A stretch of 34,308 bases of DNA, from NCBI GenBank assembly GCA_028714455.1, contig JAQTMG010000009.1, positions 1-34,308 of the forward strand, in the 5' to 3' direction. Of the stretch, positions 3-34,308 are shown piece by piece (the first letter of the stretch is position 1; every line of letters begins with the position of its first letter). The translations under genes were made by a program, and so were the position numbers. The DNA is from Patescibacteria group bacterium. Lineage in GTDB: Bacteria; Patescibacteriota; Patescibacteriia; CAIXNZ01. The notes beneath the pieces are model-generated. The model was not told the origin of the DNA and ran no database searches. It saw only the letters and a list, made by a program, of their open reading frames with translations.

Positions 3-2264
3 GGGGATTGCGTACCAGGCAGCGGCGGTACAGATACCATTATCAGGGACGATGTGGGCGCGGGTCTTTTGACGACAGGTGTTTTTCCTTACACTTATTT
101 TAACGCGGCCGGTTTTTTGGTCTACGCCGACAAAAACGCCAGCAATTCCTATACCTTTGGCGCTACCGCGGCCACTACCGAATCTCTTTGGCTGGAAAAT
201 CAAGGCGATGCTACTTGGGACAGCGTGACAAAAAATATTTTAGTGGAAGCTGATGGCACGGCTACAACGGGCGTGGGAGTAGATGATGACGCGCCGTTAC
301 GCGGTGACATTCTAATTTATTTACAGGCCGGTGATAATGTTTGCGCGGGTTTTGACTACGTAGCTGCTGTTTTCCACTTTGAAGATATTTATGTTGATGG
401 CAATGGAAATTGTATTCCTGGCGACGGGGGTGCGGATAGCATTCTTTTTGATCTGACGGGCGACGGCCTGACAGCCGGCACTGTTTATAGCGGAACCTGG
501 GCTTCGATGGCTGGCACGCTGGCTTTTTCAGACGCGATGGCAACCGGCGTCTACACCTTTGGAGCTAGTGCCGCGGCCACTGATTCGCTTTGGACGACTT
601 TCTGGGTTCCCGGGGTTGTGCATAATCCCACCTATACAAGTACGGGCGATACAAAAGTTTTTGGCTTTGATCATAATCTAAAATCGGGCGATGACCTGGT
701 CAGCCTAAAGACAGCGGTTGGAGTCGGCGGCCAGCCCATTATTTACGCTGACGCGGATTTCGGAGGCAGTCTTAATTCCACCGATGAGATTTTGGAAGAT
801 ACGGGTAATGTGCAGGGCGGTCCGGCCACGGTGCCAAATGGCGTGATTGACCGGCAGGGTGATGTCGCTGATTTTTTTACTTTTAAAAATATCGGCACGG
901 CCAGCTCGGATGAGATTACCAATGTTAGATTGTACGGTGATTTCTGGTTCACGGGCAGCAATGGTCGTTGCGATACTCCGGCCGGCTCGGTTGATGATTT
1001 ATTGATTGGGACTTTTACTTATGACGTGGCCACTCAACAATGGGTTTCCAGCGCCTTAAACAGCATAGTATTTCCGGCGCTTTTTAGGGCCTGTATCGTG
1101 GCAGATATCTCGCCAACCGCTCTTTCCAGTCACACACTGATTCCTCAAATACCGCAACTTCACGATGTCAACTCTAATGGACGTTATGACGCGGGTGACA
1201 GCGGCTTATTCTTCTTTTCTGCAAACGACGGTCCGACAGGCGGATCCATTAACGCGCCATATAGCATTACCTTTACTAACGCGCCAGGCTCTTCGTCAGC
1301 AGCATCTGGCGGCAGCAGTTTTACCTGCGGCGTTAATATTAATAACGGCAATGCCACCACTTCTGACTTGAATGTTAATCTTTCAATCAGCGCCAGCGGC
1401 CTGACAGCGAGCGAAATGATTATCAGCGATAATAGCAGCTTTACCGGAGCTAGTTTTGAACCTTTTAGCGCGACCAAGAACTGGACTTTAAGCGGCGGCT
1501 ACGGGGATAAAACCGTTTATTTGGTGCTCAAGGATGCCAATGGTACGACGAGTCAGCTCTGCTCCGCTTCGATAAATTATTCGCAGACAGGAGCGCCGAC
1601 GCCAGTACCGACCCAGCCTAGCGCGCCCATCTTGCACGGTTCAGAACCAGCCGCTCCGTTGCCATCGGACGTACAGGCCGGAGAGCTTGTTAAAATAGCC
1701 GGTATTAATTCTGTTTATTTCATTAGTTCTGATAACCGCAGACACGCTTTTCCCAATGAGATGGTATTCTTTAGCTGGTTTAAGGATTTTTCTAACGTCA
1801 AAACGATTTCCTCAAGTACCTTGGCCCTGATACCGCTTGGCAGCGACGTAACTATAAGGCCGGGCACCTGGTTATTGAAAGTTCAGAGCGATCCCAAGGT
1901 CTATGCCGTGGAAGCCTACGGAGTTTTGCGCTGGGTTAAAACGGAAACGGTTGCCCAGAATTTGTACGGCGCGGATTGGAATAAAAAAATTCTGGACATC
2001 AACCCGTCTTTCATGTTCGATTATCAATTCGGTTCGGATATTGAGACTTCGATTCATCCGACTGGTTCAGTCATTCAGTATGCTGATTCCAGCGTTAAAT
2101 ATTACGTGGAAAACGGCCAGAAAAGGCTAATCTCGCCCGCGGTTTTTTCAGCTGATTTATTCCAGGATAAATTCGTCTTGAAAAACATTTCTACGTCAAT
2201 TACTTATACAAGCGGCTCTGATTTGACAGCCAGTCCGATTCAAGATTTAATCTCGTTGAGATAA
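3..2264 (+). CDS. Large secreted/surface protein, 5' partial, with C-terminal three-repeat module
   Basis: The frame is open to the window edge, so the true start lies upstream. A GTG at 54 is only an internal codon, because the residues before it (GDCVPG) continue a repeat seen again about 134 residues later (GNCIPG). The N-terminal part is Gly/Asp/Thr-rich and beta-like with at least two such repeats. Near nt 1320-1600 there is an Ig-like segment with the motif TKNWTLSGGYGDKTVY, common in bacterial surface proteins. From about nt 1629 to the stop, three successive units of about 60 residues share a pattern of a VYxV strand, an Arg-hydrophobic strand and an aromatic region (NRRHAFPNE; GVLRWVKTE; GQKRLIS). 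The next gene ends in the same module. Inferred role: exported cell-surface or adhesion protein. The function is not proven and the missing N-terminus prevents a signal-peptide check. Confidence 0.8.
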   Translation, partial: GDCVPGSGGTDTIIRDDVGAGLLTTGVFPYTYFNAAGFLVYADKNASNSYTFGATAATTESLWLENQGDATWDSVTKNILVEADGTATTGVGVDDDAPLRGDILIYLQAGDNVCAGFDYVAAVFHFEDIYVDGNGNCIPGDGGADSILFDLTGDGLTAGTVYSGTWASMAGTLAFSDAMATGVYTFGASAAATDSLWTTFWVPGVVHNPTYTSTGDTKVFGFDHNLKSGDDLVSLKTAVGVGGQPIIYADADFGGSLNSTDEILEDTGNVQGGPATVPNGVIDRQGDVADFFTFKNIGTASSDEITNVRLYGDFWFTGSNGRCDTPAGSVDDLLIGTFTYDVATQQWVSSALNSIVFPALFRACIVADISPTALSSHTLIPQIPQLHDVNSNGRYDAGDSGLFFFSANDGPTGGSINAPYSITFTNAPGSSSAASGGSSFTCGVNINNGNATTSDLNVNLSISASGLTASEMIISDNSSFTGASFEPFSATKNWTLSGGYGDKTVYLVLKDANGTTSQLCSASINYSQTGAPTPVPTQPSAPILHGSEPAAPLPSDVQAGELVKIAGINSVYFISSDNRRHAFPNEMVFFSWFKDFSNVKTISSSTLALIPLGSDVTIRPGTWLLKVQSDPKVYAVEAYGVLRWVKTETVAQNLYGADWNKKILDINPSFMFDYQFGSDIETSIHPTGSVIQYADSSVKYYVENGQKRLISPAVFSADLFQDKFVLKNISTSITYTSGSDLTASPIQDLISLR

Positions 2265-17822: not shown

Positions 17823-18458
17823 ATGAATTCCGAACTTATCATACAACTTATTTTCCTGGTGGCGCTTTTTCTGGCCATGACCATCCATGAGTTTTGCCAT
17901 GCCCTTTCCGCTTATTATTTGGGAGACAAGACAGCTCAATATGCCGGACGCTTGACCCTAAACCCGCTGGCCCACATTGATTTATTCGGAACGATACTTG
18001 TGCCGTTATTTTTGATTTTATCTGGCTCACCCATATTGATCGGCTGGGCCAAGCCAGTGCCGGTAAATTACAATAATTTGAGTAGCCAGAAATGGGGTCC
18101 GGCTATTGTTTCTGTGTTTGGGCCGCTGGCCAACCTGGTTTTCGGCTTATTTAGCGTGGTTTTATTGAAAATAGTCGAGGTTTTTATGGGCCTGGGACCG
18201 AATAATTTGCTTGTTATTTTTCTGACCTACTTAATTTACGTAAATATCGGATTGATGATCTTTAACTTAATCCCGATTCCGCCGCTTGATGGTTCTAAGG
18301 TTTTATTCGGAATTTTGCCTGATAAATATATTAATTTTAAAATGTGGCTGGAAAGATATGGTATTATAATTTTGTTATTTATTTTGCTGTTTTTTCCCGG
18401 CTTACTCTCGGGTATTTATATAGTTATCGATTGGGTTTTTAGGTTATTTAACATATAA
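17823..18458 (+). CDS. M50 family site-2 protease, membrane metalloprotease
   Basis: 211 residues with about five or six membrane helices. The zinc ligands are present: HEFCH (22-26) in the first helix and the third ligand Asp156 in NLIPIPPLDG (148-157). The compact layout without a PDZ domain fits the short M50B group (SpoIVFB/YwhC-like). Such proteases cut transmembrane segments, often in signalling, but no anti-sigma partner lies nearby, so the substrate is unknown. It begins 147 bases from the divergent rpmB. No clear Shine-Dalgarno motif is seen before the ATG. Confidence 0.92.
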   Translation: MNSELIIQLIFLVALFLAMTIHEFCHALSAYYLGDKTAQYAGRLTLNPLAHIDLFGTILVPLFLILSGSPILIGWAKPVPVNYNNLSSQKWGPAIVSVFGPLANLVFGLFSVVLLKIVEVFMGLGPNNLLVIFLTYLIYVNIGLMIFNLIPIPPLDGSKVLFGILPDKYINFKMWLERYGIIILLFILLFFPGLLSGIYIVIDWVFRLFNI

Positions 18459-18460
18459 TC

Positions 18461-18489
18461 TTGACTTTTTTCAGCGAACAATATAGAAT
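18461..18489 (+). promoter_or_regulatory. str operon promoter
   Basis: TTGACT (18461-18466), a 17-bp spacer and TAGAAT (18484-18489). The predicted start near 18496 gives a leader of about 98 nt before rpsL. Confidence 0.75.
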
Positions 18490-21653: not shown

Positions 21654-21682
21654 TTGACAGGATTCATTATTTTAGCTAGAAT
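21654..21682 (+). promoter_or_regulatory. Promoter of the 102-residue protein gene
   Basis: TTGACA (21654-21659), a 17-bp spacer and TAGAAT (21677-21682). The leader is about 15 nt. It separates this gene and possibly tuf from the str operon. Confidence 0.75.
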
Positions 21683-21703: not shown

Positions 21704-22012
21704 ATGAAAAATTTTAAGAAAATACTGGAATTAATTAGCAAGACAGGCGATCGCTTCATATTTGAAGATGAAGACAGGGCATTTGTGGTAATTTCAGCGC
21801 AAGAATATGAAAATTTAGTCATAAAAAATAGCGAGATTAAGGATTTAAGCGAGCAAGAGCTATTGAACAAAATTAATAAAGATATTGCTGTTTGGCGCGA
21901 TTTACAAAAAATGCAAGAAGCCGAGGATAATCTGCCAAATTTGGCTGAAGATAAAGAAAAAATAGAAGAGGAAGATCAATATTATTTTGAACCGTCAGAT
22001 GACGAGGAATAA
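21704..22012 (+). CDS. Uncharacterised acidic 102-residue protein between fusA and tuf
   Basis: A small soluble protein. The N-terminal half (ILELISKTGDRFIFED, AFVVISAQEYENLV) resembles the DNA-binding part of Phd/YefM-type antitoxins in style, with a strand and then a helix, but this is only a loose similarity. The middle has DLSEQELLNKINKDIAVWR, and the C-terminus is very acidic (EEEDQYYFEPSDDEE), probably disordered. No toxin gene lies next to it. It has its own consensus-like promoter within the translation-factor cluster, so it may be a housekeeping gene of this lineage. Confidence 0.65.
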   Translation: MKNFKKILELISKTGDRFIFEDEDRAFVVISAQEYENLVIKNSEIKDLSEQELLNKINKDIAVWRDLQKMQEAEDNLPNLAEDKEKIEEEDQYYFEPSDDEE

Positions 22013-23791: not shown

Positions 23792-23820
23792 TTGACATTA
23801 ATTTGGATTTCCGCTAGAAT
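23792..23820 (+). promoter_or_regulatory. Promoter of the rplC-secY cluster
   Basis: TTGACA (23792-23797), a 17-bp spacer and TAGAAT (23815-23820), starting only 2 bases after the rpsJ stop. The predicted start near 23827 gives a leader of about 222 nt. Confidence 0.8.
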
Positions 23821-23947
23821 ATCTTTATAAATAATTAGTATCTGGTAGATTTAAAAATAATTATAAAAAATGTAAAGAAAGCTTCTTTAACCAGAAAAAC
23901 CTTTATATTTTTTAAAATTATAGGAGAATAAACAAGCTAAATAAAAA

Positions 23948-24031
23948 AGTCCAGTAAAAACCCAACTAAAAAGTTCGCGTTTTTATTAATTTTTTTTAAG
24001 GTCTGGATTATTTGGCTAAGCCAGATTTTTT
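23948..24031 (+). promoter_or_regulatory. Candidate attenuator in the rplC leader
   Basis: A first hairpin, AAAAAC/GTTTTT with AACT/AGTT inside (23956-23984), is followed by eight T. A second, TCTGGATTA/TAAGCCAGA (24002-24025, one mismatch), is followed by six T, as in a terminator. AGTCCAG (23948-23954) can pair with CTGGATT (24003-24009) and so prevent the second hairpin. This suggests transcription attenuation; the ligand is unknown, and L4 does this in other bacteria. Confidence 0.5.
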
Positions 24032-24048
24032 ATTTTCTAGAGTAAATT

Positions 24049-24768
24049 ATGAAATTTATCTTGGGTAAAAAAATAGAGATGACGCAGAAGTTTATGGCCA
24101 ATGGCGAGGTGGTGCCGGTCACCGCCGTGCAAGCCGGGCCTTGTTTTGTTACCCAAGTTAAGAATAAAGAGAAAGACGGCTATCGAGCCATCCAGATTGG
24201 TCTGGGTTCTAAAAAGAAACCAAACAAAGCGCTGGCCGGTCATCTGAAAGGAATGGAAAATTTTAGAGAACTCGGAGAGTTTGCAATACCAGAAGATGAT
24301 AAGGGCGCTTATGAGCGCGGCCAAAAAATCACCGTATCAGTCTTTGCCAAAGGCGATGTCGCCAAGGTTGTCGGCACTTCAAAAGGCAAGGGTTTCCAGG
24401 GCGTCGTTAAGAGACACGGCTTCCACGGCGCAGACAAAACTCACGGCACTAAAGACCAGTTAAGACATTCAGGTTCAGTCGGCCCCAAGGGACCGGCACA
24501 TACTTTCAAGGGTACGCGCATGGGCGGTCGCATGGGAGGCGATCAGATAACGGTAAAAAATTTAGAGATAGTTGATATTGACGATAAAAATAATCTTTTG
24601 TTTGTCAAAGGCGCGGTGCCGGGCGCCAGAAATGGTCTGGTTAGGATTATCGCTCCCGGTGAGATGAAATTTATTGAGACAGCCAAAGAAGTTTCCAAGA
24701 ATGAAGAGAAACCAGTTGAAAATCAGGCAGCCGATAAAGCTGAAGTTAAAAAAGAAGAAATTAAATAA
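24049..24768 (+). CDS. rplC: 50S ribosomal protein L3
   Basis: 239 residues. L3 features: KFILGKKIEMTQKF at the start, GTSKGKGFQGVVKRHGFHG and HTFKGTRMGGRMGGDQ. It is an early 50S assembly protein whose loop reaches the peptidyl-transferase centre. A Lys/Glu-rich tail of about 25 residues extends the C-terminus. It is the first gene after the long leader and is separated from rplD by 2 bases. Confidence 0.97.
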   Translation: MKFILGKKIEMTQKFMANGEVVPVTAVQAGPCFVTQVKNKEKDGYRAIQIGLGSKKKPNKALAGHLKGMENFRELGEFAIPEDDKGAYERGQKITVSVFAKGDVAKVVGTSKGKGFQGVVKRHGFHGADKTHGTKDQLRHSGSVGPKGPAHTFKGTRMGGRMGGDQITVKNLEIVDIDDKNNLLFVKGAVPGARNGLVRIIAPGEMKFIETAKEVSKNEEKPVENQAADKAEVKKEEIK

Positions 24769-24770
24769 AT

Positions 24771-25409
24771 ATGGCTAAGGTGAATGTCTACAATTTGGCA
24801 GGCAAGGAGATTGAAAAATTGGATTTAGATCCAAAGATTTTTGAAGTTAAAGCCAATCCCGCCTTGATTCACCAGGTCATCGAGGTTCAGCGCGCCAATT
24901 CCAGATTAAAGCTCGCCCACACGAAAACAAAAGGTGAAGTTCGCGGCGGCGGCAAAAAGCCATGGCGACAAAAGGGCACGGGCCGCGCTAGACACGGTTC
25001 GAGCCGCTCTCCTCTTTGGATCGGTGGCGGCATAACTTTTGGACCAAGGACTGAAAGGGAATTTTCAAAAAAGATTAACAAGAAAATGAAAAAGAAAGCG
25101 CTGTTTATGACGCTTTCCGATAAAGTTAAAGAAAATAATTTTATTGTTGTTGATAAATTGGTTTTGGAGGGGATAAAGACGAAAAATTTTTATAATATTT
25201 TGAAGAAATTGCCGATGCAGGGCGTCTTTTCAACACTGGTAGCTATGGCAAAAAAAGATGACATTATTAGTAGATCCGCAAAAAATATTAAAAAGACAAA
25301 AACCATATTGGCGGATAGTTTGAACGTTTACGATGTTTTGAAATATCGCTTTCTCTTGATCGATAAAGAGGGCGTGAAAAAAATAAGTGACACTTACAAA
25401 AATATATGA
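24771..25409 (+). CDS. rplD: 50S ribosomal protein L4
   Basis: 212 residues. The conserved loop is visible as RGGGKKPWRQKGTGRARHGS followed by RSPLWIGGGITFGPR, which lines the nascent-peptide exit tunnel. L4 is also the autoregulator of S10 operons in gamma-proteobacteria, so it is the natural first candidate ligand for the leader before rplC. Its TGA stop overlaps the rplW start (ATGA), indicating translational coupling. Confidence 0.97.
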   Translation: MAKVNVYNLAGKEIEKLDLDPKIFEVKANPALIHQVIEVQRANSRLKLAHTKTKGEVRGGGKKPWRQKGTGRARHGSSRSPLWIGGGITFGPRTEREFSKKINKKMKKKALFMTLSDKVKENNFIVVDKLVLEGIKTKNFYNILKKLPMQGVFSTLVAMAKKDDIISRSAKNIKKTKTILADSLNVYDVLKYRFLLIDKEGVKKISDTYKNI

Positions 25410-25861
25410 GTTTTTTAGATAGATTTAAAAAGAAAGAAGAAGCCAAAAAAAGAGAAGCACGGGTTAAGGAAAAGGCCCCAAGGCCAACGACGCTAAAGCC
25501 TAAGGCCGAGGCGCAGGCACCAGCCCTGAAGCAAAAAACGGTTTCTCGCCCGAGCGGCAAGACAAAAGATAATACAAAAAATGCTTACAGAGTTTTGGTT
25601 GCGCCAATCGTGACCGAGAAAGCGACAGATTTGGTTTCAAAAAATAAATACGCTTTTGAAGTTACCAAAGAAAGCAATAAGGTTGAGATAAAAAAGGCCA
25701 TTAAAAATGTTTATGGCTTTGAGCCGGTTAGCGTCAGGATAGTAAATGTCAGAGGCAAGGACGTTTCCTACGGCAGAATGAGCGGCAAAAGAAAATCATG
25801 GAAAAAGGCCATCGTAACGCTGAAAAAAGGCGATAAAATAGAAATCTACGAAGGAGTATAA
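25406..25861 (+). CDS. rplW: 50S ribosomal protein L23
   Basis: 151 residues, against about 100 in E. coli. The L23 domain starts near residue 60 (YRVLVAPIVTEKATDLVSKN) and ends normally (WKKAIVTLKKGDKIEIYEGV). The first 55 residues are a disordered Lys/Ala/Pro-rich extension. L23 surrounds the tunnel exit and docks signal recognition particle and trigger factor. The start overlaps the rplD stop by 4 bases. Confidence 0.95.
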   Translation: MSFLDRFKKKEEAKKREARVKEKAPRPTTLKPKAEAQAPALKQKTVSRPSGKTKDNTKNAYRVLVAPIVTEKATDLVSKNKYAFEVTKESNKVEIKKAIKNVYGFEPVSVRIVNVRGKDVSYGRMSGKRKSWKKAIVTLKKGDKIEIYEGV

Positions 25862-25882
25862 TAAATTTCATTATTGATAAAT

Positions 25883-26725
25883 ATGCCAGTTAAAGAATAC
25901 AAATCAGCCAGAGGCGGCAGAAGAAATTCAAGCGTTGACTCGTTTGAAGATATTAGCGTTGCCAAACCCTTCAAGAAACTGATCATTATAAAGAAGAAAT
26001 CTGGCGGCAGAAATGTCTACGGCAGAATTACGGTCAGACATCTGGGCGGCGGAGAAAAAAGATTTATTAGAATTATAGATTTTAAACGCGACAAGTATGA
26101 AGTGCCCGGTATTGTTAAGACGATTGAATATGATCCAAACCGTAATGCTCGAATCGCTCTTATCGCCTATAGCGATGGCGAGAAACGCTATATTGTCGCT
26201 CCGGTTGAATTAAAAATCGGAGACAAAATTGTTTCTTCTGATAAAAATGCAGTTGAGATAAAGTCAGGCAACGCCATGCCCATAATGTATATTCCGGTCG
26301 GTTCCATGATTTATAATATTGAGTTGACTCCTGGCAAGGGAGGCCAGATCGTGCGCAGCGCGGGTTGCAGCGCCCAGCTCATGGCCGTTGAGGGTGATTA
26401 CGCCCTGATTAAGCTTCCTTCTAGCGAGGTACGCAAGGTAATGAAAGAGTGCTTGGCCGTGATCGGCAGTGTGAGTAATCCAGAACATATGACCATCAGA
26501 GTTGGCAAGGCAGGTCGCAAGAGACACATGGGCATTAGACCATCAGTTCGCGGTAAAGTCATGAACCCGGTGGATCATCCACACGGTGGCGGTGAAGGCA
26601 AACAGCCGATTGGCTTGAAATATCCAAAGACGCCATGGGGTAAGCATGCCCTAGGCGTGAAGACACGCAATGTTAAAAAGTATTCAGATAAATTCATAAT
26701 TTCCAGAAGAAAGAAAAAGATTTAA
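25883..26725 (+). CDS. rplB: 50S ribosomal protein L2
   Basis: 280 residues from ATG 25883; an upstream TTG would add three residues without need. Motifs: [19 protein letters not shown], the RNA-binding middle and the near-catalytic region [16 protein letters not shown]2 is essential for subunit joining and peptidyl transfer. It is followed by rpsS after 21 bases. Confidence 0.98.
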
Positions 26726-26746
26726 CCACCATAATTAATATAATTT

Positions 26747-27040
26747 ATGTCGAGAAGTTTAAAAAAAGGTCCATACGTCAACGAGAAGCTCTTAAAAAAG
26801 CTTTCAAAATTGAGAGCTGGCGATAAGACAATCACCAAGACCTGGGATCGTGCCTGCATGATTACTCCCGAGATGGTTGGTTTTAAAATCGGCGTTTATA
26901 ACGGCAAAGAACACATCGTTGTTGACGTAATCGAAAATATGGTAGGTCACCGTTTGGGTGAATTTTCTCCCACCAGGAAATTTATTAAGCATGGTGGCAG
27001 AATGGCGAAAGAGCAGGCCAAGGAAGGCGCTGCCGTATAA
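26747..27040 (+). CDS. rpsS: 30S ribosomal protein S19
   Basis: 97 residues. [18 protein letters not shown] at the start and [13 protein letters not shown] near the end are characteristic. S19 binds the 30S head with S13 and contacts the A-site region. The length is normal, with an Ala/Glu-rich tail. The gap to rplV is 10 bases. Confidence 0.97.
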
Positions 27041-27050
27041 TTTTTAACAT

Positions 27051-27659
27051 ATGCAAATCAAAGCAAAATTAAATTATTTGAGAATGTCGCCCAAAAAAGT
27101 GCGTTGGGTCGTTGCTTTGGTTCGCGGTTTGAAAGTTGAACAGGCGCAGATCCAATTGGCTTATTTGAGTAAACTAGCCAAGAAGCCGGTATTGAAGCTT
27201 TTGAACTCCGCCATTGCCAACGCGGAAAATAATTTTAATTTAAAAAAAGAGAATTTGTTTATAAAAGAAATTAGAGTAGACCAGGGCGGTTCGCTGAAAC
27301 GCTGGACGCCAAAGGCTCATGGTCGAGCTACGCCAATTTTGAAGAGATTTTCTCACGTCACATTGGTTCTGGAAGAGCTGGCACCCAGCAAAAAGAAAGT
27401 TAAAGCCCCCAAAGTCAGTAAAAAGGAAGAAATAGTGAAGGTTGCTTCGTTGGAAGAGATCAAAAAATCACCAGTCGCTGAAAGTGTTTTGAGGCAAGAA
27501 GAGGGTAAAAAACCGGAAGGTCATGATAAAGAAATAGACAAAGAGATAATTGACGTTAGAATGGAAGGTAAGCATCGCCAACAAAAGCAGGAAGACAGAA
27601 GAAGCATGAAAAAGGCTAAAGGATTTATAAAGAAGATGTTTAACCGCAAGGCCGGCTAA
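27051..27659 (+). CDS. rplV: 50S ribosomal protein L22 with long C-terminal extension
   Basis: 202 residues, against about 110 in most bacteria. The L22 domain (1 to about 112) has LRMSPKKVRWVVALVRGL and the tunnel loop near KRWTPKAHGRATPI. From residue 113 to the end is a highly charged Lys/Glu extension that is probably unstructured or helical. L22 spans the 50S from the exterior to the tunnel, so such a tail could lie on the ribosome surface. The frame is clearly open through to the stop. Confidence 0.95.
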   Translation: MQIKAKLNYLRMSPKKVRWVVALVRGLKVEQAQIQLAYLSKLAKKPVLKLLNSAIANAENNFNLKKENLFIKEIRVDQGGSLKRWTPKAHGRATPILKRFSHVTLVLEELAPSKKKVKAPKVSKKEEIVKVASLEEIKKSPVAESVLRQEEGKKPEGHDKEIDKEIIDVRMEGKHRQQKQEDRRSMKKAKGFIKKMFNRKAG

Positions 27660-27670
27660 TTTAAATAAAT

Positions 27671-28345
27671 ATGGGACACAAAGTTAATCCAAAAGTAATA
27701 AGATTAGGCATCACTAGAACCTGGGAATCGAAATGGTTTGCCAGAAAAAACTACCCGCTTTATTTGAGGCAGGATGTTTTGATACGCAAGTTCATTAAAG
27801 CAAAACTTAAAGATTCTGGCGTGGCCAAAATTGAAATCGAAAGATCTGGTGAGAATTTGAACGTTATTATTAGAGCGGCCAGGCCGGGTATTATCATCGG
27901 CCGTGGCGGTTTGGGGGTGGAGACAATAAAGAAAGAACTGCAGGAGAAAATTTTAAATAAAAAAGAGCTTAAGATTCCCGGCAAAACAAATATTAGCATT
28001 AATATCCTGGAAGTAGATAAGCCAAATTTAAACGCGCAGATTGTCGTTGACTCTATAATAGCTGATACAGAGAAGAGGGTGGCTTTCCGTCGAGTTATGA
28101 AACAGGCGATCAGCCGAGCTATGCGGGCGGGCGCCAAAGGAGTGAAAGTTTGGATGGGAGGTCGATTGAACGGAGCTGAAATAGCCAGGACCGAGGTTTT
28201 GTCCGAAGGCACTATTCCGCTGCATACATTAAGAGCAGATATTGACTATTCAAGAGGCGCAGCCGAGACAATGTACGGTAAAGTCGGAGTAAAGGTTTGG
28301 ATATATAGGGGTGAAGTTTTTGCGAAAGATATTATTAAGAAATAA
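27671..28345 (+). CDS. rpsC: 30S ribosomal protein S3
   Basis: 224 residues. [20 protein letters not shown] is the usual start, the KH domain contains [16 protein letters not shown], and the C-terminal half has [21 protein letters not shown]3 lies at the mRNA entry channel and contributes to helicase activity. The length is normal. Confidence 0.98.
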
Positions 28346-28368
28346 CATTAGAAATCAAGGATTTATAT

Positions 28369-28782
28369 ATGTTAATGCCGAAAAAAGTAAAATTTAGAAA
28401 ATGGCACAAGGGCAGAAAAAGAGGCAAGGGTGTTGCCACTGCAGCTACCGAGGTTAGTTTTGGCAGTTATGGTTTGAAATCGTTAGATCATAATTGGATA
28501 ACCGCCAGGCAACTGGAGGCAGCGCGTAGAGCAGTCACTCATTTCTTAAAAAAAGGCGGCAGAGTTTGGATTAGAATTTTTCCAGACAGACCCAGAACTA
28601 AAAAAGGAGCCGAAGTGCCAATGGGCGGAGGTAAGGGCGCGCCAGAATTTTTTGTCGCTGTTGTTAAGCCGGGCACCATGATTCTTGAGGTTGAAGGCGT
28701 GAATCTGCAGACCGCCAAAGAAGCCATGACCCTCGCCAGCCACAAGCTGCCGGTTCGCACTAAATTTTTAGTTAAAGAATAA
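28369..28782 (+). CDS. rplP: 50S ribosomal protein L16
   Basis: 137 residues. [19 protein letters not shown] at the start, [19 protein letters not shown] and [19 protein letters not shown] identify it. L16 helps to position the A-site tRNA. A second ATG six bases later (MPKK) is an alternative start. The gap to rpmC is 4 bases. Confidence 0.97.
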
Positions 28783-28786
28783 AGTT

Positions 28787-29005
28787 ATGAAATATAAAGA
28801 AGAATTAAAGGATTTAAAACTAAAGTCAGAAGCAGAACTGGGCAAACTTTTGGCAGCCAGCCGAGAGAAGCTACGCGATTTAAGATTTAAAGTTTCCCAA
28901 AATCAATTAAAAAATGTCAGAGAGGTAAGAGTAATAACAAAAAAAATTGCTTTACTGCTGACTCTGATTGGTCAGAAAAAGTTATCAAATAAAGCAAGCA
29001 AATAA
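28787..29005 (+). CDS. rpmC: 50S ribosomal protein L29
   Basis: 72 residues, mostly helical, with the core KLRDLRFKVSQNQLKNVREVR. It binds near the tunnel exit beside L23. The length is normal, and it lies 5 bases before rpsQ. Confidence 0.93.
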   Translation: MKYKEELKDLKLKSEAELGKLLAASREKLRDLRFKVSQNQLKNVREVRVITKKIALLLTLIGQKKLSNKASK

Positions 29006-29010
29006 AATTT

Positions 29011-29265
29011 ATGGAAAAATCTAACGCTAACAACAAAAGAAGATTTGAAGGTACAGTGGTCGGCAATAAAATGAGCAAGACCATCAGTGTTTTAGTTACC
29101 AGCGTTAAGATACATCCGAAGTACAAGAAACAATTCAAGACAAGCAAGAAATACAAGGTAGCTGATGATAAGGCCGAAGCAAAAATTGGAGACAAGGTAA
29201 TTTTTGAGGAATGCCGGCCGCTTTCCAAAGATAAAAGATGGAGATTAATTAAGGTCGTAAAATAA
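29011..29265 (+). CDS. rpsQ: 30S ribosomal protein S17
   Basis: 84 residues. The OB-fold core reads [20 protein letters not shown] and [19 protein letters not shown]17 is a primary 16S rRNA binder of the 30S body. The length is normal, and it ends 4 bases before rplN. Confidence 0.96.
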
Positions 29266-29269
29266 TTAT

Positions 29270-29641
29270 ATGGTGCAACATCGAACAATGTTAAAATTGG
29301 CTGATAATACCGGAGCTAAAAAGCTGCAGGTTATTCGAGTATTGGGTGGTTACAAAAAAAGATTTGCGCGATTAGGCGATATCGTGACTTGTACTATTAA
29401 AGAGGCAGCGCCACACGGTATGGTTAAGAAAAGCGATGTTGTCTATGCCGTTCTAGTCAGAACCAGGAAAGAAGTTAAAAGGAATGACGGTTCTTATATT
29501 AGATTTGACGATAACGCGGCAGTTATAGTTGATAAGAAAACCAAGGAACCAAAAGGTACGCGCATACTTGGACCAGTAGCCCGAGAATTAAGAGTAAGGG
29601 GCTATGCTAAGATAATTTCACTCGCACCCGAGGTGCTGTAA
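29270..29641 (+). CDS. rplN: 50S ribosomal protein L14
   Basis: 123 residues. Motifs: [35 protein letters not shown] and [14 protein letters not shown]14 forms an intersubunit bridge and binds the silencing factor RsfS. The protein starts MVQH rather than the more common MIQ, with no Shine-Dalgarno motif. Confidence 0.97.
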
Positions 29642-29651
29642 TTAGAAAAAT

Positions 29652-29972
29652 ATGAAATTTAAAAAGGGAGACAAAGTAAAAGTTATCGCAGGGAAAGACA
29701 GAGGCAAGAAAGGAAAGATCTTGCAGATTTATGCCGAGCGAAATAAAGCTTCGGTTGAAGGTATTAATTTAACTATAAAACACGTTCGGCCGAGAAAAGA
29801 AAATGAAAAGGGCCAGAAGATCGAATTTCCAGCGCCCATGAATATCTCCAATCTGATGCTGCTTTGTCCAAAATGCAATAGAAGCGCTAGAATAGCTTAC
29901 AAAATCCTAACAGCTGATAATAAAAAAAGTAAAGTCAGGATTTGTGCGAAATGCAAAGAATTGATTGATTAA
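29652..29972 (+). CDS. rplX: 50S ribosomal protein L24
   Basis: 106 residues. The KOW motif is KGDKVKVIAGKDRGKKGKIL. The C-terminal part carries two CxxC pairs (CPKC and CAKC), so it is probably a zinc-binding form. L24 starts 50S assembly. Confidence 0.96.
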   Translation: MKFKKGDKVKVIAGKDRGKKGKILQIYAERNKASVEGINLTIKHVRPRKENEKGQKIEFPAPMNISNLMLLCPKCNRSARIAYKILTADNKKSKVRICAKCKELID

Positions 29973-29989
29973 ATTTTATAAATTAAGAT

Positions 29990-30550
29990 ATGAATTTAAA
30001 AGAATTCTACAATAAAAAAGTTGTGCCCGAGCTGGAAGGCAAATTTGGTTATAAAAATGACATGCAAGTGCCAAAGCTGGAGAAAGTGGTTTTAAACGCC
30101 GGTTTGAGTAAGGGACTTAAAGAACCCAGTTATATTGAGACTGTGGAGAGTACCTTGGCGAGAATTTCTGGCCAGAGACCGCAAAAAACCAAGGCCAAAA
30201 AGTCAATTTCAAATTTTAAAATAAGAAAGGGCATGGTCATTGGCATGAAGGTAACCATTAGGGGACAGCGCATGTACGATTTTATCGAGAAACTTATCAA
30301 GATAACGTTGCCTCGCGTCCGTGATTTTCGCGGTTTGCCAGTTGAAAATTTGGATAGAAATGGCAATTTAAATATAGGTATTAGAGAACACATCGCTTTT
30401 CCAGAAATTAAGGCTGACGAGATAGAAAAGCTTCATGGCCTAGAAATAGCGATTGTCAGTTCGGCCAAGAGCAAAGAAGAGGCCCTGGCCTTATTCTCCG
30501 CCCTGGGTTTTCCGTTTAGGAAAGCAGAATCTAAATCTGATAAAAAATAA
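29990..30550 (+). CDS. rplE: 50S ribosomal protein L5
   Basis: 186 residues. Typical segments are [35 protein letters not shown] and [14 protein letters not shown]5 carries 5S rRNA together with L18 and contacts the P-site tRNA. The length is normal. Confidence 0.97.
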
Positions 30551-30560
30551 TATTTTAAAT

Positions 30561-30746
30561 ATGGCGACAAGTGCACAGATTGCAAAATCAAATAAAAAAC
30601 CGAAGTATTCAACTCGCATAGTGAGAAGATGCTGGAGATGTGGCCGAGCTCATGGCTATATGCGTGATTTTGGAATTTGCAGAATTTGCTTTAGAGAACT
30701 GGCAAGTAAAGGTGAGGTGCCAGGAATTAAAAAAAGCAGCTGGTAA
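30561..30746 (+). CDS. rpsN: 30S ribosomal protein S14, zinc-binding type
   Basis: 61 residues from the ATG at 30561. The frame is open further upstream, but that part overlaps rplE and is not needed. Zinc ligands are CWRC and CRIC, and the ending [11 protein letters not shown] is typical of short, zinc-type S14. It lies in the 30S head. Confidence 0.95.
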
Positions 30747-30782
30747 TTATTAAATTATAAACTAGAAGTTAAATATTTTAAT

Positions 30783-31178
30783 ATGATTACAGATCCAATA
30801 GCAGACATGTTAACAAGAATAAGAAACTCTCAAGCCGTCAAGAGAGAAGGGGTTTTGATTCCATACTCAAAGCTAAAGTTTGAAATTGCCAAAATATTGA
30901 AGCACGAAGATTACGTTGATTCTTTTGAAAAAATCGATGAAGCAAAATTTCCGCAAATTAAGATAATTTTGAAATACGGAGCTGACGGCGAATCAGCTAT
31001 CAGAAGCATCAAGAGAATAAGTAAGCCGGGTCATCGCGTCTACGCCGGCAAGGGCGATATAAAAAATGTTTTAAATAATTTAGGCATTTCAATCATTTCT
31101 ACTTCGGCAGGCCTAATGACCAATAAAGATGCCAAGAAAAAAGGCGTCGGCGGCGAAGTAATTTGCGAGATTTGGTAA
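30783..31178 (+). CDS. rpsH: 30S ribosomal protein S8
   Basis: 131 residues. The start TDPIADMLTRIRNSQAVKR and end ISTSAGLMTNKDAKKKGVGG are characteristic. S8 is a primary binder of the 16S central domain and represses the spc operon in E. coli. The length is normal. Confidence 0.97.
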   Translation: MITDPIADMLTRIRNSQAVKREGVLIPYSKLKFEIAKILKHEDYVDSFEKIDEAKFPQIKIILKYGADGESAIRSIKRISKPGHRVYAGKGDIKNVLNNLGISIISTSAGLMTNKDAKKKGVGGEVICEIW

Positions 31179-31189
31179 TTTATATTTTT

Positions 31190-31738
31190 ATGTCAAGAAT
31201 AGGCAAAAAACCAATTGAGATACCGAGCGGCATTGACGTTAGAATTGAGGGAGATCTTGTTATTGTCAAGGGTCCGAAAGGAGAATTAAGACAAACAATT
31301 CATCCCGATGTTATTGTTGAAAAAAAAGATAATTTTATTTCCGTTAGTATTAAGGATCAGAGTGAAGTTGACCAGCGAGCACTTTGGGGACTTTTTTCCA
31401 GATTGATTCAGAATATGATTATTGGGGTCAAAGACGGTTATGAAAAAAAGATGGAAGTTGTTGGTGTTGGCTTCAGAGTCGCCCTACAAGGTAATAAGAT
31501 AGTTATGAGCTTGGGATTTTCTCATCCAGTTGAATTTGTATTGCCCGGGGGCATTAAAGCAACCGTCGAAAAGAATTTAGTAACTTTATCAGGCATCGAT
31601 AAACAACTTGTCGGTGAGACGGCGGCTAGGCTGCGCAGAATAAAAAAGCCCGATGTTTATAAAGGTAAGGGCATCAAATATTTAGAGGAAGTGATTAAAA
31701 AGAAACCAGGCAAGGCAGCCGCCAAAGCAGCCGCATAA
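31190..31738 (+). CDS. rplF: 50S ribosomal protein L6
   Basis: 182 residues from ATG 31190 (MSRIGKKPIEIPSG). A longer frame begins inside rpsH and is rejected because the family starts at this methionine. The VVGVGFRVALQGNKI and KPDVYKGKGIKYLEE segments identify L6, which lies near the factor-binding site. It has a short Lys/Ala tail. Confidence 0.96.
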   Translation: MSRIGKKPIEIPSGIDVRIEGDLVIVKGPKGELRQTIHPDVIVEKKDNFISVSIKDQSEVDQRALWGLFSRLIQNMIIGVKDGYEKKMEVVGVGFRVALQGNKIVMSLGFSHPVEFVLPGGIKATVEKNLVTLSGIDKQLVGETAARLRRIKKPDVYKGKGIKYLEEVIKKKPGKAAAKAAA

Positions 31739-31754
31739 TTTATAATATTAATAT

Positions 31755-32108
31755 ATGGAAGCTAAAATCAAACAAGAAAAAAGAGAAGCCAGAAGAAAAA
31801 GGGTGCGAGCTAAGGTTATTGGCACGGCCAGCAGACCGCGACTTAGCGTATTTCGCAGCCTGAAACACGTTTATGCGCAATTGGTTGATGATCAGATCGG
31901 AAAGACTATTGTTTCGGCTAGCGATTCCGAGCTCGGCAAAAAGAAAATGACAAAAATCGATAAAGCAAAAGAAATCGGAAAACTGATGGCGCAAAAAGCC
32001 GTTGCCAAGGGAATAAAAAAAGTGGTGTTTGATCGCGCCGGCTACAAGTATCACGGTCGAGTGAAAGCCGTAACCGAAGGAGCGCGCGAGGGCGGTTTAG
32101 AATTTTAA
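31755..32108 (+). CDS. rplR: 50S ribosomal protein L18
   Basis: 117 residues. [20 protein letters not shown] and [20 protein letters not shown] are the family hallmarks. L18 binds 5S rRNA. The length is normal. Confidence 0.97.
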
Positions 32109-32123
32109 TCATATTATTAAAAT

Positions 32124-32618
32124 ATGCCTAAGAAAAATTTTAGAGAATTAAAGAGAGACGAAGAGTTTGAACAGCGCACTATCGATCTGGCCAGGGTGAC
32201 TCGCGTAACCTCGGGCGGTAAGAGGATGCGTTTTCGCGCCTGTATCGGCATCGGCAATAAGGCCGGTAAGTTTGGTGTTGGCGTAGCCAAGGGCGCTGAC
32301 GTTTCCATGGCCATAACCAAGGGTTTTAATCAAGCCAAGAAAAATATCATAAATATTCCGTTGGTAAATGAAACTATTCCGCATCCGGTTTTTGTAAAGT
32401 TCGGTGCGGCTAAAATTTTATTAAAGCCCGCCAGAAAAGGTACAGGTATAAAAGTCGGTGGTGCCGTCAGAATTCTTTGCGAGCTGGCTGGTATCTCCAA
32501 TATTTCGGGAAAAATTTTAGGTTCAAAAAATAAAATAAATAACGTTAAGGCGGCTATGATCGCCTTGAGTAGTTTTAAAAAAGGAAAAGTAAGAGAGAAG
32601 AAAGAGGAAAAGAAATAA
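32124..32618 (+). CDS. rpsE: 30S ribosomal protein S5
   Basis: 164 residues. The double-stranded RNA-binding region reads RVTRVTSGGKRMRFRACIGI, and the C-terminal domain has KPARKGTGIKVGGAVRILCE. S5 affects decoding accuracy at the mRNA entry site. It ends 4 bases before rplO, leaving no room for an rpmD (L30) gene, which usually lies here. Confidence 0.97.
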   Translation: MPKKNFRELKRDEEFEQRTIDLARVTRVTSGGKRMRFRACIGIGNKAGKFGVGVAKGADVSMAITKGFNQAKKNIINIPLVNETIPHPVFVKFGAAKILLKPARKGTGIKVGGAVRILCELAGISNISGKILGSKNKINNVKAAMIALSSFKKGKVREKKEEKK

Positions 32619-32622
32619 TTTT

Positions 32623-33096
32623 ATGGCTTTAAATTTATACAACTTAAGACCGGCGAAAGGTGCTAAGAAGAATAAGAAAAGAGTTGGCCGAGGAGATTCC
32701 TCTGGCCATGGCACGTATTCGACGCGCGGCCAGAAGGGTCAGCGAGCCAGAAGCGGCGGCAGACGAGGCCTGAAGATGATGGGCCTCAAGACGAGCATCC
32801 AGAGCATTCCAAAACTCGGCGGCTTCAAGAGTCTCAAACCGAAAAATTCCGTGATTAATTTGAAAGATCTGGAAGTTAATTTTAAGGACGGTGAAAACGT
32901 CAGTGCCTTGAGTTTGTGGAAAAAAGGATTAACAGATAGTAAATACGGGGTTAAGATATTAGGAGAAGGGAAAATAAGCAAAAAGTTAAATATTGCCGAT
33001 AATGTAAAAATATCCGCATCGGCTAAGGAGGCGATTGAAAAAGCCGGCGGTAAAGTCGCGAGCATAACGGCCGAGGAGCCGAAAGAAAATAAATAA
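32623..33096 (+). CDS. rplO: 50S ribosomal protein L15
   Basis: 157 residues. The Gly-rich start is typical: KKRVGRGDSSGHGTYSTRGQ, then GQRARSGGRRGLKMMG, and IPKLGGFKSLKPKN follows. L15 is a late 50S assembly protein. It directly follows rpsE, and secY follows 2 bases after its stop. Confidence 0.97.
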   Translation: MALNLYNLRPAKGAKKNKKRVGRGDSSGHGTYSTRGQKGQRARSGGRRGLKMMGLKTSIQSIPKLGGFKSLKPKNSVINLKDLEVNFKDGENVSALSLWKKGLTDSKYGVKILGEGKISKKLNIADNVKISASAKEAIEKAGGKVASITAEEPKENK

Positions 33097-33098
33097 AT

Positions 33099-34308
33099 AT
33101 GTTTGATAAAATTTTTCAAATATTTAAGATTAGAGATCTGCGCCGCAGCATTCTTTTTGTGCTGGGTCTACTCTTTGTTTTTAGGATAGCAGCGCATATA
33201 CCAATACCGGGAGTCGATCTTACTGCTTTGAAGGATTTTTTTAATTCAAACCAAGTGTTTGGCTTGATCAATATCTTTTCCGGCGGATCTATGGAGAGAT
33301 TTTCCATCGTCGGTATGGGCGTCGGACCATTCATCACCGCTTCGATTATATTTCAGCTTTTGATTATGATTATTCCTCGCCTCGAAGCGCTATCTAAGGA
33401 ACCAGGCGGTTATCAAAAAATCAATCAGTGGACCAGAGTGCTCACGGTACCGCTGGCTGCCTTACAGGCTTATGGCACCATCTCCATTTTGAGTCATCAG
33501 TCGGCTTACAAGATAATTAATTTTGCTTCGCCCTTTGATTTGTTCAGCGCGATAATAACTCTTTGCGCGGGCACAGTCTTTTTAATGTGGCTGGGCGAAC
33601 TCATCTCTGAAAGAAAAATAGGAAACGGCATCTCGCTCTTGATCTTTGCGGGTATTATCGAGCGTTTGCCGCAGGTACTACAGACGGTCATTGTGACTTT
33701 TGACCCGACAGAAGTTCTTAATATAGCTCTCTTTGCGGCCGTTGCCTTGATTACTATAGTCGTTGTAGTAATAATAAACGAGGGTACTCGAAACGTTCCC
33801 GTTTCTTATGCGAGGCACATTCGGGGTCACCGCATGTATGGCGGTGTAAACACGTATTTGCCGTTGCGAGTTAATATGGCTGGCGTGATTCCGATAATCT
33901 TTGCCATCTCACTGATTATTTTCCCTCCGATGATAGCCAACTTTTTTTTAAACGCCAAGACGCAATTTTTGGCCAGCGCTTCACAGTTTGTAATTAACGT
34001 TTTCCAGAATCAGCTGATCTACGGCCTCCTTTATTTTACGTTTGTTTTTGGCTTCACTTATTTCTATACCGCGGTGGTTTTTCATCCGCAACAGATTGCC
34101 GACAATCTGCAGAAGCACGGCGGTTTTATTCCGGGTATACGTCCTGGCAAACACACGGAAGATTATCTTTCTTTCGTAACTAATAGAATAATATTCGCGG
34201 GCGCCCTTTTTCTGGGCCTCATCGCGGTGTTGCCCTTGGTTATTCAGCAATTTACAGGCACGCTAAATCTGGTGATCGGCGGAACCAGCTTATTAATCGT
34301 GGTTAGCG
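33099..34308 (+). CDS. secY: Protein translocase subunit SecY, 3' partial
   Basis: The frame starts at ATG 33099 (MFDKIFQIFKIRDLRRSILF) and is open to the window end, giving about 403 codons of a usual 430. Membrane helices recur, and GVGPFITASIIFQLL and PGIRPGK near residue 347 are family motifs. SecY forms the protein-conducting channel of the Sec system with SecE and SecG. It is the last gene visible of the S10-spc cluster. Confidence 0.97.
   Translation, partial: MFDKIFQIFKIRDLRRSILFVLGLLFVFRIAAHIPIPGVDLTALKDFFNSNQVFGLINIFSGGSMERFSIVGMGVGPFITASIIFQLLIMIIPRLEALSKEPGGYQKINQWTRVLTVPLAALQAYGTISILSHQSAYKIINFASPFDLFSAIITLCAGTVFLMWLGELISERKIGNGISLLIFAGIIERLPQVLQTVIVTFDPTEVLNIALFAAVALITIVVVVIINEGTRNVPVSYARHIRGHRMYGGVNTYLPLRVNMAGVIPIIFAISLIIFPPMIANFFLNAKTQFLASASQFVINVFQNQLIYGLLYFTFVFGFTYFYTAVVFHPQQIADNLQKHGGFIPGIRPGKHTEDYLSFVTNRIIFAGALFLGLIAVLPLVIQQFTGTLNLVIGGTSLLIVVS

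Follow-up and report, generated by a model that had tools for sequence, protein, structure and literature searches.

The leader that separates rpsJ from rplC in the 34,308-nt stretch of Patescibacteria DNA analysed here (the window), which belongs to a genome of 893 kb, is probably an autogenous ribosomal-protein transcription attenuator controlling the genes from rplC to secY, with L4 as the most likely ligand and L3 as the second choice. The best-supported part of this leader, judged from aligned relatives, is a 71-nt domain that we call P1, overlooked in the initial annotation of this DNA. It is made up of a long hairpin, whose internal loop is near-invariant, and an AAGGAGA box behind it. 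On these alignments P1 covaries strongly enough to be defined as a new RNA family, the known rplC leaders having been compared with it by description only. P1 is followed by an intrinsic terminator and by a conserved alternative pairing. In 20 families, genomes have this element in front of their largest ribosomal protein operon.

Leader, promoter and gene order

The genes of this part of the window are arranged in the order fusA, an ORF at 21704-22012, tuf, rpsJ, the leader, and then rplC to secY. The position of the leader, before rplC and not before rpsJ, is unusual because rpsJ here is part of a fusA-tuf-rpsJ cluster, in which it comes after tuf. Behind the leader lie 20 co-directional genes, 19 for ribosomal proteins and secY, in agreement with the number that the initial annotation had placed under its control; secY is incomplete and extends past the end of the window. 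Pfam names 17 of the 20, while rpmC, rpsN and secY are what we take the corresponding genes to be from their translations. The features discussed below are collected in Table 1.

Table 1. Features of the leader region, in window coordinates
Feature	Position	Strand	Remarks
Sigma-70-type promoter, TTGACA-17-TAGAAT	23792..23820	+	11/12 consensus bases; TTGACA 23792-23797, TAGAAT 23815-23820, spacer 17 nt
rplC leader RNA	23827..24048	+	222 nt; sequence; start placed from the promoter
P1 hairpin	23857..23918	+	covariance models R1-R3; loop 5' AG-AAAG-N-U / 3' A-AAAC-CU
P1 core, UAAAG-AAAGC-UUCU...AGAA-AAAC-CUUUA	23873..23905	+	invariant A, A, G / A, A, C, U in 44/44
AAGGAGA box (here TAGGAGA)	23921..23927	+	single-stranded, close to the 3' end of P1; complements the genome's 16S tail AUCUCCUUUCU; not followed by a start codon
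Antiterminator 5' strand (AGCTAAATAA ... AGTCCAG)	23936..23954	+	AGCTAAATAA 23936-23945 with TTATTTGGCT 24008-24017; 7-bp part AGTCCAG 23948-23954 with CTGGATT 24003-24009; inner TCCAG invariant 8/8; outer part with both-side changes
Switch segment (TCTGGATTATTTGGCT)	24002..24017	+	antiterminator 3' strand and terminator 5' arm
Intrinsic terminator, ATTTGGC-TAA-GCCAGAT and six T	24010..24031	+	hairpin 24010-24026, six-T run 24026-24031; wider form TCTGG 24002-24006 with CCAGA 24021-24025; CCAG[A/G]TTTTTTATTT in 8/8 family members
Putatively controlled genes	24049..34307	+	rplC rplD rplW rplB rpsS rplV rpsC rplP rpmC rpsQ rplN rplX rplE rpsN rpsH rplF rplR rpsE rplO secY

The consensus promoter and 222-nt leader described in the initial annotation were both recovered. 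The promoter begins 3 nt past the rpsJ stop codon, and transcription would start near 23827, judging from its position. When folded as a whole, the leader gave a z-score of -3.41, and none of 200 shuffled sequences folded equally well. An L3 gene was obtained from 8 of the 9 genomes of the window's family, and all eight have TTGACA, a spacing of 17 and a second hexamer of the form TA...T. The gap between rpsJ and rplC also keeps a fixed order of elements in all eight: TTGACA-17, P1, GGAGA, TCCAG, TCTGGAT and CCAG[A/G]TTTTTTATTT. The ninth genome (G002), of the same genus as the window genome, yielded no rplC though it is rated 100% complete (130 contigs), probably owing to an assembly gap. Elsewhere in the window, two strong promoter-like sites (21654-21682 and 18461-18489) lie 3-4 nt past the stops of fusA and of the ORF at 17823-18458, respectively, and resemble the promoter found after rpsJ.

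The P1 hairpin and its distribution

P1 was described by a covariance model built on the 8 family members (R1) and by two widened models (R2 and R3). In an alignment of 44 sequences, 24 of the 25 pairs showed changes on both sides, 87.0% of the cells were paired and covariation reached 0.726, compared to 0.225 after shuffling and at most 0.196 after sliding; the sequences were aligned by fitting them to the model, so these values lean towards the structure. The covariation in relatives that had been suggested as a check is thus strong, and it was found in a domain absent from the initial annotation. The internal loop hardly varies: an A (column 23), an A and a G (27, 28), and A, A, C and U (198-200, 202) are identical in 44/44 sequences, and a G-C pair (28 with 200) likely stands beside a three-A bulge. 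Since this invariant loop is enclosed in a covarying stem, P1 is probably a ligand-binding domain, and likely the sensor of the leader.

The models were then run over class genomes. With a limit of E<=0.1, R1 matched 27 of 380. All 21 matches with E<=1.01e-3, including 13 that do not come from the training family, lie between rpsJ and rplC, while the six weaker ones (E>=1.04e-3) are near none of the genes for EF-Tu, S10, L3, L4, L23 and L2. In an even draw from the class, R2 found P1 before rplC at 7 of 28 loci, with E<=2.3e-5 for four and 0.009, 0.038 and 0.22 for the others; a candidate visible by eye at locus L024 was excluded from this count. In 80 further rplC-upstream regions searched with R2 and filters off, the best 21 matches (E<=0.031) were all on the sense strand, and weaker ones fell on both strands. 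R3 matched 61 of the 380 class genomes at E<=0.01, and in 60 of these, from 20 families, the match lies before rplC on the same strand. This placement was established by coordinates for 38 (86-251 nt from the L3 match) and by tblastn for 22, with S10 before and L3 after; the sole match out of place is in genome G291 (L182). Twenty-two of the 61 genomes had contributed no training sequence, and 21 of these 22 matches are in place. No match at E<=0.01 was obtained with R3 in the remaining 319 genomes under the strict filters of the large genome searches, which drop weak matches. With the same strict filters, an even sample of 379 genomes of the phylum yielded P1 in 5, all of the same class. P1 is thus a conserved, structured RNA that immediately precedes a ribosomal protein operon and, with one exception among the 61 class matches, occurs only in that place.

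A compact invariant internal loop joined to an expression platform with a terminator might also be read as a small-molecule riboswitch, in which P1 would bind a metabolite, for example a nucleotide signal. We regard this as quite improbable. The near-exclusive association with rplC and the single real copy in the window's own genome (two other matches, with E of 5.5 and 7.5, are at chance level) are as expected of an autogenous element, and P1 matched no Rfam riboswitch. Indeed, Rfam 15 gave no family above its gathering cut-off in the leader and 20 relative loci, and across the window it identified only two tRNAs.

Terminator and alternative pairing

As computed, the leader ends in an intrinsic terminator with a mutually exclusive alternative fold. 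The terminator-like hairpin with six T reported in the initial annotation is present, and its T-run ends 17 nt before rplC, a gap that leaves no room for a promoter, so that rplC transcripts must cross it. The alternative pairing of 7 bp, one of them G-U, that the annotation had set against this hairpin is also present and, like the terminator, is kept in 8/8 family members, but it abuts the compact hairpin without overlapping it. Exclusivity arises instead from a longer antiterminator, which joins the pairing of AGCTAAATAA with TTATTTGGCT to the 7-bp part, and from a wider form of the terminator, both of which are conserved. The computed energies of the two folds differ by 0.2-1.7 kcal/mol in all eight family genomes.

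The antiterminator was more stable than 60 of 60 shuffled sequences in five of the eight family members, than all but one in L006 and all but two in L004; in L008 it was unremarkable (17 of 60). Its inner helix, AUCCAG/CUGGAU, is constant within the family and so by itself carries no evidence. The outer helices vary: by eye, AGCU/GGCU is found in two members, CACU with AGUG or GGUG is possible in four (in one of these, L005, the minimum free energy (MFE) fold prefers a different outer pairing), L007 has another sequence, and L008 has none. The two outermost antiterminator pairs therefore change on both sides. A pairing of 23840-23846 with 24020-24026, proposed by the MFE of the whole leader, was rejected because only one of the eight family members has the CTGG that it requires.

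Terminators were sought within 150 nt of the rplC start in 116 leaders of the class and found in 61 of them, compared to a mean of 4.05 (maximum 9) in 20 sets of shuffled sequences and 4 on the opposite strand; this is an uneven sample, made of 80 leaders hand-picked from about 160 genomes with the most similar L3, 28 from the even draw (among its 36 L3-bearing genomes, besides two of the window's own family) and 8 of that family, and with several genomes per family the leaders are not independent. The other 55 have no terminator under our simple rule. Compared with shuffled sequences, the terminator's 5' arm shows more upstream pairing (0.63 vs 0.53, Wilcoxon p 9e-5, n=60), and taken singly, only 13 of the 60 leaders reach p<=0.05 for arm pairing and only 10 of the 60 for complementarity of the upstream sequence to the terminator arm. 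The hairpin and T-run are kept while their sequence differs between families. These results suggest that attenuation upstream of rplC is frequent across the class and that the exact antiterminator is variable. Together with the pairing conserved in 8/8 family members, these class-wide terminators, well above chance, support the attenuator that the initial annotation had proposed.

The hairpin might instead merely end the fusA-tuf-rpsJ transcript, with no regulated attenuator of rplC. Of the 44 P1 leaders, 41 had an rpsJ stop that could be located, and in 12 of these P1 starts at most 11 nt past it; the element is therefore intercistronic there and transcribed from further upstream, as this reading would have it, which makes the promoter found in the window's family a local feature. 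We nevertheless judge it very unlikely, given the lack of promoter room behind the terminator, the conserved promoter that precedes P1 in 8/8 family members, and the balance between the alternative folds, which a plain terminator would not lead one to expect. Control of rplC translation and not of transcription would agree with a U-rich tract near the rplC start codon and with E. coli, in which L4 acts at both levels (PMC10931766). Such control is hardly probable here: only 8 of 116 rplC leaders have a Shine-Dalgarno-like site that could be hidden, and what is kept between families, despite the change in sequence, is the hairpin with its T-run.

Two further observations were made upstream of rplC. 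In three other families, L021, L023 and L036 share CAGATAAC[AG]ATTTGC in a leader of a different type, which may constitute a second leader class. In family f44, L021, L107, L129, L133 and leaders like them have a motif near AACAATTTGCCAG, placed within the antiterminator strand or immediately ahead of it, and leaders with and without P1 share it.

Proposed control and known ribosomal protein leaders

The flank of P1 contains GGAG in 28 of 44 leaders. The following base is A in 25 of these 28 and AU comes next in 10. The genome's own 16S rRNA ends in GGACCAUCUCCUUUCU, not in the usual GAUCACCUCC (as given in PMC10582724), so that AAGGAGA, included in the complement AGAAAGGAGAU, is an exact Shine-Dalgarno sequence for this organism. 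No ATG follows it at a workable distance: ATG, GTG or TTG occurs 3-13 nt past the box in 5 of 28 leaders (all TTG, no ATG), compared to 36% of random leader windows, and a leader peptide was ruled out on the ground that start codons are rarer than random. The 16S tail GGACCATCTCCTTTCT at locus L184 (about 1499-1514, minus strand) has GACCA for the GAUCA box and UCUCC for the CCUCC anti-Shine-Dalgarno.

A Shine-Dalgarno sequence of this kind, lacking a start codon and fitting the variant anti-Shine-Dalgarno of this lineage, could make the leader a sensor of free 30S subunits: a bound 30S would cover the antiterminator strand and cause termination when ribosomes are in excess. The complementarity to the 16S tail, the bases kept after GGAG and the scarcity of start codons are in line with this idea. 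So is the rarity of Shine-Dalgarno-like sites in general, found for rplC in 8 of 116 leaders and, at a length of at least 4 bases, upstream of only 4 of the 29 window genes checked, most starts, including that of rplC, having none. The idea leaves the invariant loop of P1 unexplained, however, and 16 of 44 P1 leaders have no GGAG in the flank; we consider it unlikely. A combined version, in which the box matched to the altered 16S tail (UCUCC) and P1 together would sense free 30S or the state of assembly and switch L3 to secY through the terminator, seems to us doubtful to a similar degree. If true, it would mean feedback by whole subunits and not by one free protein.

In the autogenous attenuator that we favour, polymerase starting after rpsJ would transcribe P1, then the AAGGAGA box, then the segment with two exclusive folds. 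Formation of the antiterminator (23936-23954 with 24002-24017) would allow read-through into rplC-secY, and formation of the terminator (24002/24010-24031) would stop transcription 17 nt before rplC. When rRNA is short, a free ribosomal protein, L4 or as second choice L3, would bind to the internal loop of P1 and the AAGGAGA box. It would thereby block the antiterminator at its 5' strand, whose start is 8 nt past the box, and favour the terminator. That P1 is coupled to the switch is suggested by this distance; no base-pairing between the two is evident. L4 is proposed as the ligand because it controls the same operon in E. coli via termination in the leader (PMC10931766), a line of reasoning also applied to the Archaeoglobi leader (PMC7247131); L3, the second choice, is encoded directly behind the leader. 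One short RNA and one protein would then suffice to test in vitro the autogenous control of these tiny, mostly uncultured cells.

In the E. coli S10 operon, binding of L4 to the leader causes termination at an intrinsic terminator (PMC10931766). Both leaders thus belong to an L3-L4-L23-L2 operon and contain such a terminator, but the E. coli leader lies before rpsJ, whereas that of the window lies after rpsJ, which follows tuf. The S10 leader is described as working through a NusA-dependent pause, with no mention of a bistable switch, and P1 was compared with it by description. According to the same source, the E. coli-type leader is not widely conserved even in gammaproteobacteria (PMC10931766). 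The difference in position from this classical leader, noted in the initial annotation, is confirmed and has precedents in cyanobacteria (PMC1242208) and Archaeoglobi (PMC7247131). The cyanobacterial rplCD leader (Axmann et al. 2005, PMC1242208), known here as a table entry (cluster 5, NT), is structured and lies directly before rplC. The Archaeoglobi L4 r-leader (Eckert and Weinberg 2020, PMC7247131), set against P1 by description, lies before rplC-rplD and differs in being archaeal and from another lineage; its proposed ligand, L4, was chosen on the basis of earlier knowledge. Since both are listed at this place, a position before rplC alone is not new. The L20 leader (RF00558) and the L10(L12)4 leader of rplJL in B. 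subtilis are alike in mechanism, a ribosomal protein shifting exclusive terminator and antiterminator folds (PMC10931766), but they serve other operons and other ligands. A match of the window to the L20 leader RF00558 was discarded because it scored 24.3 bits, below the cut-off of 58.7, and did not recur on the sense strand of two relatives. Our search of the open-access literature found no ribosomal-protein leader for Patescibacteria.

Likeness to the rRNA binding site is a frequent but not obligatory trait of ribosomal-protein leaders. Mimicry of 23S rRNA by P1 was sought, and not seen, at the genome's own 23S locus, where the best R3 match reached 10.9 bits (E 0.8) and fell outside the core, and a scan for the core loop was negative. 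The own 23S match itself (L148) measures 3116 bases for a model of 2925 positions and is A+T-rich near 1980-2240 of the gene, which possibly reflects an insert in this rRNA gene.
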